From NCBI RefSeq assembly GCF_003668995.1, contig NZ_CP033068.1, forward strand, positions 4,154,001 through 4,218,000: a stretch of 64,000 nt of DNA. Reading direction: 5' to 3'. Of this stretch, positions 25,716 through 45,981 are shown piece by piece. Made by a program: the position numbers and the translations under genes. The stretch comes from Flavobacterium sp. 140616W15 (GTDB lineage Bacteria > Bacteroidota > Bacteroidia > Flavobacteriales > Flavobacteriaceae). The notes beneath the pieces were generated by a model, which saw only the letters and a list, made by a program, of their open reading frames with translations, was not told the DNA's origin and searched no databases. The stretch's first letter is position 1. Every line of letters starts with the position of its first letter.

Positions 25716-25768
25716 TTTTGTTATTACAAAATAGTACAAACTACAACAACAACACAAACACAAATACA

Positions 25769-27667
25769 ATGAGCGACGCTTTAAAACACGAATGTGGTAT
25801 AGCTTTGGTTAGACTTCTTAAACCGCTTGAATTTTACAAAGAAAAATACGGAACAGCTTTTTATGGGATAGAGAAAATGTATCTTATGATGGAAAAGCAA
25901 CATAACCGTGGACAAGATGGTGCTGGTTTTGCAAGCATCAAATTAGATGTTGAGCCAGGACAACGATATATAAGTAGAGTTCGTTCAAATCACTCACAAC
26001 CTATACGTGACGTTTTTGCTCAAATAAACGACCGTATCAATGAAGAAATGGCTGCACATCCTGAATATGCTGGAAACGTTGCACTTCAAAAAGAAAATAT
26101 TCCATATATAGGAGAGCTGTTTTTAGGACATGTTCGTTATGGAACTTTTGGAAAAAATAGCATAGAAAGTGTACATCCTTTTTTACGTCAGAGTAACTGG
26201 ATGCATCGTAATCTTATATTGGCAGGTAATTTTAACATGACTAATGTTAAAGAGCTTTTCGAAAATTTGGTTGAACTTGGGCAGCATCCTAAAGAAATGG
26301 CGGATACAGTTACCGTTATGGAAAAAATTGGTCACTTTCTTGATAAAGAAGTAATGGCATTATATCAGGATTGTAAAGAAGAAGGATACTCAAAAAGAGA
26401 TGCTTCGCCTGTTATTGCAGATCGATTAGATATTGGAAAAATATTAATGCGTTCAGCTAAAAACTTAGATGGAGGATACGCAATGGCTGGATTATTAGGT
26501 CATGGTGATGCATTTGTTTTTAGAGATCCAGCTGGGATTCGTCCAGCTTATTTTTATCAAGATGATGAGGTTGTAGTTGTAGCATCAGAGAGACCAGTTA
26601 TTCAAACTGTTTTTAATGTACCATTTGATAGCGTTCAGGAAATTGAGCCAGGAAATGCGTTAATCATTAAAAAAAGTGGAAAAGTTTCGATGGAAGAAAT
26701 TTTAACACCTACAGTTAAAAAAGCATGTTCATTTGAAAGAATTTATTTTTCAAGAGGAAGTGATGCCGAAATATATCAAGAACGTAAAAATTTAGGTAGA
26801 TTAATTTTGCCTGCAGTTTTAAATTCAATTGATAGCGATACAGACAACACCGTTTTTTCTTACATCCCTAATACGGCCGAAACTTCTTTTTATGGTTTAG
26901 TTGAAGCTGCTCAGGATTTCTTGAATCAGAGAAAAAATAATTATATAATAGCAAATAGAAATACGCTTACTGCAGATACATTGCAAGAACTGCTTGCTGT
27001 AAAAATACGTACAGAGAAAGTAGCTATTAAAGATGCTAAATTAAGAACCTTTATTACAGAGGATAGTAGTCGTGATGGCTTAGTTGCTCACGTATACGAT
27101 GTAACATATGGGGTTATAAAACCAACAGATAACTTAGTTATTATTGATGATAGTATTGTTCGTGGAACTACGCTTAAGATGAGCATCATAAAAATGATGG
27201 ATCGTTTAAATCCAAAACGAATTGTAATTGTATCATCAGCTCCGCAAATTCGTTTTCCAGATTGTTATGGAATCGATATGGCAAAGTTGGAAGGATTGGT
27301 TGCTTTTAGAGCTGCTTTAGAATTGTTAAAAGAACGTAATTTATATCATATAGTAGACGAGGTTTATGCTAAGTGTAAAGCGCAGGAGAATTATTTAGAC
27401 ACAGATGTTGTAAATTATGTTACTGCAATTTATGCGCCATTTGAACCACAAGAAGTTTCGGATAAGATCGCAGAAATGTTAAGTTCGCCAGAGATTAAAG
27501 CTGAAGTAAAAATCATATTCCAAACAGTAGAAGATTTGCATATTGCATGTCCTAAGAACCTTGGGGATTGGTACTTTACAGGTGATTATCCGACTCCAGG
27601 AGGGAATAGAGTAGTGAATCGAGCTTTTATGAATTTCTACGAAGGAAAAGACGCTAGAGCGTATTAA
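25769..27667 (+). CDS. purF: Amidophosphoribosyltransferase-like enzyme (PurF homologue)
   Basis: A 632-residue protein starting MSDALKHECGIALVRL; a TTG 51 bases upstream lies in the terminator tail. The N-terminal glutamine amidotransferase domain needs a free cysteine: Cys9 follows a short propeptide-like stretch, and NRGQDGAGFAS is typical of class II amidotransferases. The phosphoribosyltransferase domain carries the PRPP loop VIIDDSIVRGTT near residues 456-467. The enzyme makes phosphoribosylamine, the first step of purine synthesis. It is about 130 residues longer than classical PurF, with extra sequence between and after the domains, as in other Bacteroidetes. Confidence 0.9.
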   Translation: MSDALKHECGIALVRLLKPLEFYKEKYGTAFYGIEKMYLMMEKQHNRGQDGAGFASIKLDVEPGQRYISRVRSNHSQPIRDVFAQINDRINEEMAAHPEYAGNVALQKENIPYIGELFLGHVRYGTFGKNSIESVHPFLRQSNWMHRNLILAGNFNMTNVKELFENLVELGQHPKEMADTVTVMEKIGHFLDKEVMALYQDCKEEGYSKRDASPVIADRLDIGKILMRSAKNLDGGYAMAGLLGHGDAFVFRDPAGIRPAYFYQDDEVVVVASERPVIQTVFNVPFDSVQEIEPGNALIIKKSGKVSMEEILTPTVKKACSFERIYFSRGSDAEIYQERKNLGRLILPAVLNSIDSDTDNTVFSYIPNTAETSFYGLVEAAQDFLNQRKNNYIIANRNTLTADTLQELLAVKIRTEKVAIKDAKLRTFITEDSSRDGLVAHVYDVTYGVIKPTDNLVIIDDSIVRGTTLKMSIIKMMDRLNPKRIVIVSSAPQIRFPDCYGIDMAKLEGLVAFRAALELLKERNLYHIVDEVYAKCKAQENYLDTDVVNYVTAIYAPFEPQEVSDKIAEMLSSPEIKAEVKIIFQTVEDLHIACPKNLGDWYFTGDYPTPGGNRVVNRAFMNFYEGKDARAY

Positions 27668-27727
27668 AGCATAATGAAAGGTTAAAACGTGCATTTCATC
27701 GGTTTTTTTTACCGTTTATCTTAATTG

Positions 27728-27759
27728 TTTGGAGAAAATGCACTGCTAACATACTTTTG
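27728..27759 (+). promoter_or_regulatory. Promoter of small RNA copy 1
   Basis: TTTG (27728-27731), a 20-base spacer and TACTTTTG (27752-27759) match the flavobacterial consensus. The conserved RNA core starts 4 bases later. An inverted repeat GTGCATTT/AAATGCAC (27689-27696 and 27736-27743) overlaps it and may close the end of purF transcription. Confidence 0.75.
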
Positions 27760-27763
27760 AAGT

Positions 27764-27834
27764 ACCATAACATTAGTAGGTTAAGTTTATGGTAGATTTG
27801 GGGCAAAAAGGGTGGAAGTAATTCCACCTTTTTT
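27764..27834 (+). ncRNA. Candidate small RNA, tandem copy 1
   Basis: About 70 nt and non-coding. The first stem is ACCATAA/TTATGGT around a 16-base loop. It is followed by the unpaired linker AGATTTGGGGCAAAAA and a terminator with the stem GGTGGAA/TTCCACC (27811-27828) and a T run. A 46-nt core starting at ACCATAACATTAGTAGG is identical in the second copy 199 bp downstream. Promoter, core and terminator are all present, so it looks like an independent transcript. It may belong to a known flavobacterial RNA family; I cannot name one. Confidence 0.7.
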
Positions 27835-27926
27835 ATTGGAATAAAGTCAAGTACAAGCGCCAGATAACGGCTTCCTGGATATGAAATAATACTTATAAAC
27901 GTTTTTTTTGTAGTTCAACAGAATTA

Positions 27927-27958
27927 TTTGCTAGAGCTATAATGTCAACATACATTTG
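27927..27958 (+). promoter_or_regulatory. Promoter of small RNA copy 2
   Basis: TTTG (27927-27930), a 20-base spacer and TACATTTG (27951-27958). Spacing and elements are the same as in copy 1, although the spacer sequence has diverged, which is the pattern expected of a selected promoter. Confidence 0.75.
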
Positions 27959-27962
27959 AAGA

Positions 27963-28033
27963 ACCATAACATTAGTAGGTTAAGTTTATGGTAGATTTGG
28001 GGCAAAAAAGGTGAAAGAGATTTCACCTTTTTT
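27963..28033 (+). ncRNA. Candidate small RNA, tandem copy 2
   Basis: Same layout as copy 1: identical core with the ACCATAA/TTATGGT stem and GGGGCAAAAA linker, then a terminator with the stem GGTGAAA/TTTCACC (28010-28027) and a T run. Against copy 1 one G-C pair of the terminator stem has become A-T on both arms. That is compensatory change, while the loop differs freely (GAGA against GTAA). Confidence 0.7.
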
Positions 28034-28044
28034 ATTTTCTTTTT

Positions 28045-28160
28045 TTCTAGAGAATAGAGCAAAGATTATAGAAGAAAGATTGTTGAGAAAAGAGGGTAGA
28101 ACAGAGAATATAGAATAAAGATTATAGAATAAAAGACTCTGGATAAAGACATAAAAATAT
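28045..28160. repeat. Purine-rich AAAGATTATAGAA repeats
   Basis: This stretch between the small RNAs and the sodA terminator has no gene. It contains AAAGATTATAGAA twice, together with related words AGAATAGAG, AGAATATAGAATAAAG and GAATAAAAGACTC. A complementary stretch (TCTTTATTCTTTACTC) follows the sodA terminator. It looks like low-complexity intergenic repeat. Confidence 0.5.
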
Positions 28161-28172
28161 AAAAACAAAAAA

Positions 28173-28208
28173 AAAAGACGAATAACCGTTATAGGCTATT
28201 CGTCTTTT
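28173..28208 (-). terminator. Terminator of sodA
   Basis: AAAAGACGAATA (28173-28184) and TATTCGTCTTTT (28197-28208) form a 12-bp stem around a 12-base loop. On the minus strand it is followed by a long T run. Confidence 0.85.
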
Positions 28209-28235
28209 CTCTTTATTCTTTACTCTATTCTCTTC

Positions 28236-28844
28236 TTACTTGTCTAAAGCGAATCTTCTTGCAACTTCAGTCCAGTTAATTACACTGAAAAAAGCTTCAA
28301 TATAATCAGGTCTTCTGTTTTGGTAGTTTAAGTAGTAAGCATGTTCCCAAACATCCATTCCTAAGATTGGAGTTCCTTCGCAACCTACTTCAGGCATTAA
28401 TGGATTGTCTTGGTTTGGTGTTCCGCAAACATCTAACTTTCCTCCTTTAACTACGCATAACCAAGCCCATCCTGAACCAAATTGAGTAGCGCCAGCTTTT
28501 GCAAATTTAGCTTTGAATTCTTCAAAAGTTCCAAAAGAAGCCTCGATAGCTGCTAATAGATCTCCTGTAGGTAATCCACCACCGTTTGGTGACATTACTG
28601 TCCAGAATAAGTTGTGGTTGTAATATCCACCGCCATTGTTACGAACTGCAGCGTTTTTTTTATCTAAATTGATTAGGATGTTTTCTATTGTTTTACCTTC
28701 TAAATCTGTACTAGCAATTGCTGCATTAAGATTAGTAGTGTATGCATTATGATGTTTTGTGTGGTGGATTTCCATTGTACGAGCATCAATATGTGGTTCT
28801 AATGCGTCATACGCATAAGGTAATTGTGGTAATTCGAAAGCCAT
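28236..28844 (-). CDS. sodA: Superoxide dismutase (Mn/Fe family, Mn-like residues)
   Basis: A 202-residue enzyme that converts superoxide to hydrogen peroxide and oxygen. The metal ligands are His27 (EIHHTKHH), His77 (YYNHNLFW), Asp164 and His168 (DVWEHAYYL). The outer-sphere glutamine is Gln145 in NQDNPLM, with glycine in the GGGYYNH position. This is the manganese-type arrangement, though flavobacterial enzymes may use either metal. No signal peptide is present, so it is cytoplasmic. It has its own terminator. Confidence 0.95.
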
Positions 28845-43172: not shown

Positions 43173-43328
43173 ATCGAAAATATTAAACGCACGAAACCCT
43201 CGCTTTAGGTGTGACTAAATATCCAAAGGATAGATTTAGGGCAGTTTCCTGCTCCAGCACCTTGGCGAGGGCCCGCTTATTGTTAACTTTAAATAAATTT
43301 TTATCGAAAGTCCTTTACATATTTAGTC
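43173..43328 (-). promoter_or_regulatory. Structured leader RNA, riboswitch-like, before the 91-residue gene
   Basis: On the minus strand CCCTCGC (43265-43271) pairs with GCGAGGG (43197-43203), and AGGTG (258-262) with CACCT (207-211). Inside are two hairpins: GAGCAG-GAAA-CTGCCC (43239-43254, a GNRA tetraloop) and a 10- to 12-base hairpin with a TTT loop (43215-43239). Together they form a three-way junction. The 5' end, GACTAAATATGTAAAGGA (43311-43328), is complementary at 16 of 18 positions to 43213-43230, an arm of the second hairpin. The two folds exclude each other. Confidence 0.65.
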
Positions 43329-45489: not shown

Positions 45490-45981
45490 AAAATTGATTT
45501 TTATTTTTCAGATAAAGCAGCCCAAAAGCCGACTTTATACATTTTAATATGATAAATTCTGTGCAAAAATAAGCAATAGAATTGAGAGTTTTACTGTTTT
45601 TATTAGGAGCAATTTCCAGCTATCCACTTTATCTTTACTTGCCTAAAGTAGGCAAGCAAAGGATGCCGTTTCTATCTGGGCTAAAACGAGCTATATTTAA
45701 CAGTGATAGAAGTGACAATTTCGCTTAGTTAGCAGTATTTAATTTCTATAAACAGACGCTATAAAGATATTATTTAAGAAGGGTGAAATCTACAAGAATA
45801 TTTTTTGTGTATAGGAAATAAAATGATGCGTGAAATAAAAAAAAGAAACGGAAGTGCTTAGTAAATAGGATATTATGTTTTTTATTAGAGTGTCCTAAAT
45901 AGTCTAGAAATTTATAAATAGGATTTATTTAGACTCAAAAAAATAGTATTACATTTACCTTTTAGTAATAAAAAACAGACA
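45490..45981. other. Long intergenic region upstream of metG with a dispersed repeat
   Basis: About 490 bp. No gene is supported. It holds the repeat described at 45607-45696 and otherwise AT-rich sequence. Near its right end TACATTTA (45951-45958) is one base off a -7 element and could serve the DinB-like gene at 45982. Confidence 0.5.
45607..45696. repeat. Dispersed hairpin repeat of the ATTTCC...GGATGCCGTTTC type
   Basis: GGAGCAATTTCCAGCTATCC is followed by an inner hairpin CTTGCCTA/TAGGCAAG and then GGATGCCGTTTCTATC and GGGCTAAAACGAGC. From memory, elements of this layout recur between genes in flavobacterial genomes. It is more GC-rich than its surroundings. Confidence 0.6.

Follow-up and report, generated by a model that had tools for sequence, protein, structure and literature searches.

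In the gap between purF and sodA of Flavobacterium sp. 140616W15 lie what are probably two copies of a trans-acting, base-pairing small RNA (sRNA) that covers the start regions of its target mRNAs and most likely represses their translation. The window, i.e., the whole stretch of DNA that was analysed, is 64,000 nucleotides long. Our computations cover the anatomy of the sRNA genes, their conservation, and their complementarity to other transcripts, which includes the start codons of two unrelated mRNAs. Covariation, a synonymous-codon bias and conservation confined to the target leaders support the view that this pairing is real. The clear target in the genome itself would be the gene for a CAP-domain lipoprotein, and in other genera that for a protein of about 42 amino acids.

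Anatomy of the tandem sRNA genes

An earlier note on this DNA had described a tandem pair of small RNA genes between purF and sodA, and on re-examination its units, promoters, bodies and terminators all read as it stated. The features are as follows.

25718..27667, + strand: purF, left neighbour (ORF; conserved synteny)
27728..27759, + strand: promoter of sRNA copy 1, with TTTG at 27728-27731, 20 nt, and TACTTTTG at 27752-27759
27764..27835, + strand: sRNA copy 1, predicted transcript of about 72 nt (folding z −4.4, homologues)
27764..27793, + strand: 5' hairpin of copy 1, ACCATAA/TTATGGT with loop CATTAGTAGGTTAAGT; predicted to form the part of the duplex from the start codon upward
27794..27809, + strand: single-stranded linker of copy 1, AGATTTGGGGCAAAAA; complements the TTTGCCCC box of target leaders
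27810..27834, + strand: intrinsic terminator of copy 1 (sequence; two-sided stem changes across homologues)
27927..27958, + strand: promoter of sRNA copy 2, with TTTG at 27927-27930, 20 nt, and TACATTTG at 27951-27958
27963..28034, + strand: sRNA copy 2, with the same 46-nt body as copy 1 and a diverged terminator
28009..28033, + strand: intrinsic terminator of copy 2 (sequence; two-sided stem changes across homologues)
28236..28844, − strand: sodA, convergent right neighbour (ORF; conserved synteny)

Of the neighbours, we take the ORF at 25718..27667 to be purF, for amidophosphoribosyltransferase, and that at 28236..28844 to be sodA, for superoxide dismutase. Read directly, both sRNA units consist of TTTG-N20-TACNTTTG, then the body, then a terminator; they lie 199 bp apart and share 81% identity over an aligned 136 nt. 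Over all 46 nt the bodies (27764-27809 and 27963-28008) agree letter for letter, with the 5' stem ACCATAA/TTATGGT in each, and the terminator stems differ, being GGTGGAA/TTCCACC in one copy and GGTGAAA/TTTCACC in the other, with a T run after each. Beside copy 2 the DNA has direct repeats of 14 bp, rich in A and T, as well as an imperfect inverted repeat (28049-28133 and 28098-28233), and a long hairpin flanked by A and T runs at 28161-28220 is probably the sodA terminator.

The flavobacterial sigma-A box TAnnTTTG has been placed at −12 to −5 (PMC9723704), which puts the predicted +1 of the two transcripts at exactly 27764 and 27963. Upstream of Flavobacterium copies, 185 distinct sequences were compared. 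At −12..−5, 177 of them match TANNTTTG with no more than one mismatch, 89 of these being exact, against a background of 1.2% of sampled window positions at the same tolerance, and 98 have a TTG within −45..−28. That promoter elements have been kept, as the earlier note held, is thus borne out by a sigma-A box in place in nearly all of these sequences.

Both copies fold better than each of 200 shuffles (z −4.4 and −4.6), into two stem-loops with the linker predicted unpaired. Across 31 aligned homologues, terminator pairing was kept through two-sided changes in 33 cells, a figure reached by none of 500 shuffles; these changes are spread over four of the ten terminator pairs, a pair number that is not above that of the shuffles (346 of 500 reach four). 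The compensatory change previously noticed between the two terminators is one instance of this broader pattern. No two-sided change was seen in the 5' hairpin among the 31 homologues, and four of its seven pairs are invariant, so that the evidence for this hairpin consists of conservation and folding. The linker is among the most conserved stretches of the alignment. Conservation thus resides in the sequence of nt 1-46 and in how the terminator folds, which would be expected if nt 1-46 served to recognise other molecules.

An Rfam search over 27400-28300 returned no family at gathering score, and this was so for the sRNA units with Flavo-1 included, the comparison that the earlier note had proposed. 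Some families, FopS among them, score about 20 bits at the units, which is below threshold and was treated as chance. Flavo-1 (RF01705) has its sole gathering-score match in the window at 45609-45686 and none at the sRNA units; that match (minus strand, 74 bits) is a separate known flavobacterial sRNA motif. A c4-2 RNA match at 43194-43272 (minus strand) lies just above its gathering score (41.7 vs 41).

Distribution and genomic setting of the sRNA

With BLAST at E 0.001, a match was found in 164 of 199 Flavobacterium genomes, of which the one in G097 is a target leader alone, making 163 the better count for the sRNA. A covariance model built from 31 diverse copies and applied with strict filters detected the sRNA in 311 of the 397 Flavobacteriaceae genomes searched, which represent 193 of 237 genera. 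In a class-wide draw the model matched 11 of 395 genomes, ten of them Flavobacteriaceae; the eleventh match (G671, locus L342, 40.8 bits, outside the family) has no GGGGCAAA core and was not retained. The sRNA family is widespread in the Flavobacteriaceae and probably ancestral there. The description of the genes as twins holds for this genome and not as a rule, since a positive genome has from one to seven matches.

The 46-nt body is almost unchanged in the other genera displayed. Both purF and sodA flank the sRNA at 100 of 117 Flavobacterium loci and at 28 of 32 loci from other genera, counts in which some misses are due to short fetched stretches, some genomes contribute more than one locus, and the 32 include the weak L342. 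The core, searched for in flavobacterial genomes as had been suggested, thus recurs in its purF-sodA setting across genera. No sRNA match was found in phage and plasmid collections at E 1e-5. A mobile repeat without a promoter, the outcome that the earlier note had said would refute it, is not supported, given the cross-genus purF-sodA gap and the lack of any phage or plasmid match at that threshold. The proposal that these are genes under selection agrees with their presence in 311 of the 397 family genomes, with the placed promoters and with the conservation of complementary target leaders described below.

Complementarity to a CAP-domain lipoprotein leader

In several genomes, weak BLAST matches to sRNA nt 11-44 lay away from the sRNA copies, and these led to a candidate target: they proved to be antisense to the leaders of one gene, encoding a CAP-domain lipoprotein (PF00188). 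Two CAP genes were found in the genome itself at E 0.01. One of them is the predicted target (G000:C1:2393651-2394133, minus strand; leader AGTTTGCCCCACAATCTACTTTAAACTTAAACTACTGATATTATG). Its leader from −55 to +3 pairs with sRNA nt 2-53 at −53.5 kcal/mol, and both here and in many Flavobacterium species nt 2-46 are predicted to pair with about −40..+3 of the CAP mRNA, start codon included. The second CAP gene of the genome has no site (−19.1).

The duplex of nt 1-46 with the CAP leader reaches −48.8 kcal/mol. By comparison, the leaders of 133 other ORFs in the genome average −18.2 (sd 3.3) and reach −29.0 at best, and the best values among 1000 shuffled leaders and 1000 shuffled sRNAs are −32.5 and −33.8, respectively. 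When the folding of both RNAs is counted the pair still scores −27.4, against a mean of −6.4 (sd 2.4, best −14.2) for 52 ORF leaders of the window. Folded alone, the CAP leader is predicted to leave its CCCC box unpaired (0.93-0.98) and to hide its AUG (unpaired 0.01-0.02).

The linker had been singled out earlier as the candidate for pairing. It does complement conserved target leaders, and in this the suggestion stands; the pairing is not limited to it, spanning nt 2-46 and with them the 5' hairpin. Complements of the linker with up to three mismatches occur at 50+56 sites in the genome (sRNA copies included), vs 44+44 for the reversed pattern. Many targets reached through the linker alone were considered and rejected, as the eight sites with one or two mismatches besides the sRNA copies offered no convincing leaders. 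A linker complement with one mismatch at G000:C1:1823996-1824011 (L095) lies about 60 nt upstream of the start of a DeoR-like regulator, perhaps by chance.

Conservation and covariation of the pairing in Flavobacterium

Among 80 named CAP loci, 72 of the 78 leaders that could be parsed (L134 and L184 are unparsed and uncounted) pair with the window's sRNA at −30 or below, and the sRNA was present in all 49 genomes of these leaders that were searched (50 asked). Taking the best copy and gene of each genome, cognate sRNA-leader pairs fall below −30 in 54 of 59 genomes. Cognate pairs average slightly lower than swapped ones (−43.34 vs −42.71), a value as low as which arose in none of 5000 permutations; the advantage is small because the sRNA hardly varies.

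At one predicted base pair, sRNA and leader change together. Position 7 of the sRNA faces mRNA position −2, and over 53 genomes this pair is A-T in 37, G-C in seven and G-T in one, the exceptions being A-A in four and A-G, A-C, T-T and mixed copies with C in one each; in the six genomes with A-A, A-G or A-C, every copy forms the non-standard pair. Over 54 distinct CAP leaders, sequence identity is 85% from the CCCC box to the AUG, vs 59% for the 73 columns before this block and 64% for the 30 columns that begin with the AUG. In four of the CAP leaders (L073, L079, L080, L082) the CCCC box occurs twice, some 50-60 nt apart.

The two genes also occur together. In 80 Flavobacterium genomes, a CAP gene at E 1e-10 was found in 35 of the 45 with an sRNA match vs none of the 35 without (Fisher 5.7e-14, with G097 counted as having a match and kinship ignored), which leaves 10 of the 45 in which no CAP gene was found at that threshold. 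Judged by reading the leaders, 22 of the 35 CAP-bearing genomes have the site and G089 is borderline (−28.2); the site is missing in ten (−14.4 to −26.9) though the sRNA is present, and two are unparsed. In this check L260, L262 and L298 were unparsed, and one of the two CAP genes of G166 was judged. The CAP genomes without a site imply that the sRNA probably has other targets in some species.

A small protein as candidate target outside Flavobacterium

A pattern search for the linker complement in 40 genomes of other genera, from which 20 sites were inspected, brought out a recurrent ORF of 41-44 aa. Five of the sites lie at this small ORF (L392-L395, L409), L391 is a related leader and L406 an sRNA copy; the remaining 13 were dropped as lying inside ORFs, having no nearby start or forming weak duplexes. 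Two observations concern single loci. L397 (G487), one of the 13, pairs at −42.3 with the generic sRNA, with no ORF of note seen behind it, and L391 (G443) has two tandem antisense-like sites with no ATG-started ORF behind, possibly a natural sponge or a decayed target.

A profile of the small protein, at E 0.01, matched in 171 of the 397 genomes of the family, which represent 115 of 237 genera; it matched none of the three Flavobacterium genomes in this draw, and at the same threshold nothing in the genome of the window. The sRNA is present in 166 of the 171 genomes with the small ORF vs 145 of the 226 others (Fisher 1.5e-17, kinship ignored), the two draws of 397 being taken as identical genomes because their handles agree. 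Of the five small-ORF genomes without the sRNA, four have a weak profile match (E 0.002-0.009) and the fifth is 76% complete.

Five seed loci aside, it was the protein and not the pairing that led to the small-ORF leaders. All parsed leaders form duplexes with the generic sRNA, of −36.2 to −52.9 in 26/26 (from 30 loci) and of −35.6 to −64.0 in 19/19 of the weaker set (from 20 loci), against a null of 52 window leaders (mean −18.2, best −27.4) that is drawn from the window's own genome and not from those genera. L418, L419, L435, L439 and L459 were unparsed and uncounted, and in some cases a rule decided the start codon. The AUG usually lies within the duplex; at some loci the best duplex is found in the first codons instead. 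Among 45 distinct leaders, 34 have an exact or near AAATCTACC box no more than 50 nt from the start, and 22 have an upstream CCC(C)AAA(T) box.

That the small ORF is coding follows from the distribution of differences over codon positions 1, 2 and 3 (751, 263 and 1531, respectively, for codons 15-42 in 139 pairs). Within it, the Leu of an Asn-Leu-Pro motif is written CTA in 38 of 40 ORFs vs 24% of Leu codons elsewhere in the ORF, so that AATCTACC seems to be held at the RNA level too, as if it were read by the sRNA. The proteins (L410-L459) begin with APNLP or ATNLPEQPT and end in LTKKVFML-like sequences, their C-terminal half is amphipathic, and no Pfam or NCBIfam family matched them at E 1. 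At the three loci inspected, the small ORF lies between genes that, judging by their sequences, encode CoA-transferase and a Dpp/Opp-type ABC ATPase.

Proposed mechanism and alternative explanations

In the mechanism that we favour, each sRNA copy would be made from its own sigma-A promoter and ended at its intrinsic terminator, and the whole part before the terminator would be the recognition element. The linker GATTTGGGGCAAA would probably land first, on the unpaired CCCC box of the target leader, and the duplex would then grow across the hairpin loop until it reached the sRNA's 5' end, covering the leader through the AUG. The 5' hairpin would open in the process, as its arms belong to the duplex. 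The start codon would thereby be closed to the ribosome, with possible degradation of the duplex; repression is assumed from the position of the duplex over the start codon. Several copies would raise the dosage, and they may act redundantly or additively, in line with what the earlier note had said of such twins.

Strong and conserved complementarity could also serve titration, with the CAP and small-ORF mRNAs acting as sponges for a family-wide sRNA that has other main targets. This would suit the leaders that carry two or three complementary boxes, L391, where no ATG-started ORF was seen behind the retained tandem sites, and the 145 of 226 genomes that keep the sRNA without a small ORF found, suggesting other targets. 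Titration needs no particular placement, however, and the sites are set against the start codon of an ORF whose codon positions (751:263:1531) mark it as coding, which is why we think it unlikely.

Activation, in which the sRNA would pair with the same leaders and open an inhibitory structure or protect the mRNA, we consider improbable as well, given that the predicted duplex covers the AUG itself and would block initiation. In its favour, the AUG of the genome's own CAP leader is predicted to be paired in the free leader, and two mRNAs predicted as targets of another flavobacterial sRNA, Rfp18, became less abundant when it was deleted (PMC9723704).

Rfp18 of Flavobacterium psychrophilum raises a question of identity, as it is a flavobacterial trans-acting sRNA that is likewise structured and conserved in the genus, with predicted pairing to metalloprotease mRNAs (PMC9723704). 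That our sRNA is Rfp18 and acts on those mRNAs is nevertheless very improbable, because Rfp18 is predicted to pair through a third stem-loop (PMC9723704) and the sRNA here has two. The F. psychrophilum sodA is THC0290_0164 (PMC5682007) and by interpolation lies near 197 kb, just after Rfp11 at 182,564; if the Rfp numbers follow the chromosome, Rfp12 or Rfp13 would fit the purF-sodA place better. The transcript may thus be among the other Rfp RNAs (PMC9723704) or the candidates of PMC5395568. Lastly, an sRNA that arose as a copied antisense of the leaders would explain the antisense-like length of the match, but complementarity as a functionless relic is scarcely credible where it has been kept over many genera while the flanks diverged, with paired changes at sRNA 7 and mRNA −2, a CTA bias in the small ORF and promoters retained.

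Repression by pairing over the start region therefore stays the reading that we prefer. By all the sequence evidence gathered here, the locus holds a conserved, multicopy sRNA gene found across the Flavobacteriaceae. The sRNA family is new and its general kind is known; its predicted pairing in trans is unusually long, and its target has apparently changed between genera. It has two conserved classes of predicted target, including a widespread small protein that no Pfam or NCBIfam family matched, and is a natural case in which to see how the targets of a conserved sRNA are retained or replaced. To our knowledge, few sRNA-target pairs are known in Bacteroidota. The system may also be a case for start-codon control in bacteria without Shine-Dalgarno sequences (PMC9723704).

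Comparison with known systems

None of the papers found in literature searches describes, by its title or the opening of its abstract, this sRNA with these targets, and the candidate lists of PMC9723704 and PMC5395568 may contain the transcript. In general kind, the locus resembles trans-acting, multicopy base-pairing sRNAs: each copy has its own promoter and terminator in the sequence, several near-identical copies exist (two here, one to seven per positive genome), and complementarity to mRNAs encoded elsewhere is conserved, save in the 10 of 35 CAP genomes where it is missing.

The FopS RNAs (RF04319) are paralogous sRNAs of Bacteroides, and thus likewise of Bacteroidota, about 65-70 nt long, in several copies and with sigma-A-type promoters, whose 5' part pairs near mRNA start codons (PMC11697453). 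They are encoded between genes, in antisense or in 3'UTRs, and act on SusC-type mRNAs (PMC11697453), whereas the sRNA here is in tandem at purF-sodA, has about 45 nt of complementarity and has other targets. Identity with FopS was rejected, the sRNA units scoring 17.9-18.4 bits against a gathering score of 56. LhrC of Listeria likewise comprises several copies of one kind of sRNA (PMC4132741); its phylum and targets are different.

A more specific idea, which we offer tentatively and regard as rather unlikely, is that the tandem purF-sodA sRNA silences the membrane-active-looking protein of about 42 aa by pairing with its leader, start codon and early codons, in the manner of a type I toxin-antitoxin system with distant genes, and that in Flavobacterium the CAP lipoprotein leader is served by the same RNA. 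In type I pairs such as IstR/TisB and OhsC/ShoB, an sRNA has long complementarity to the mRNA leader of a small protein, and in other genera the sRNA described here is likewise complementary at length to such a leader. It differs from these pairs in that its other predicted target is a 169-aa lipoprotein and that the small protein was not found in the window's own genome at E 0.01. If the idea is true, the sRNA may have outlived its first target, the peptide gene being seemingly absent from Flavobacterium (0/3 genomes).
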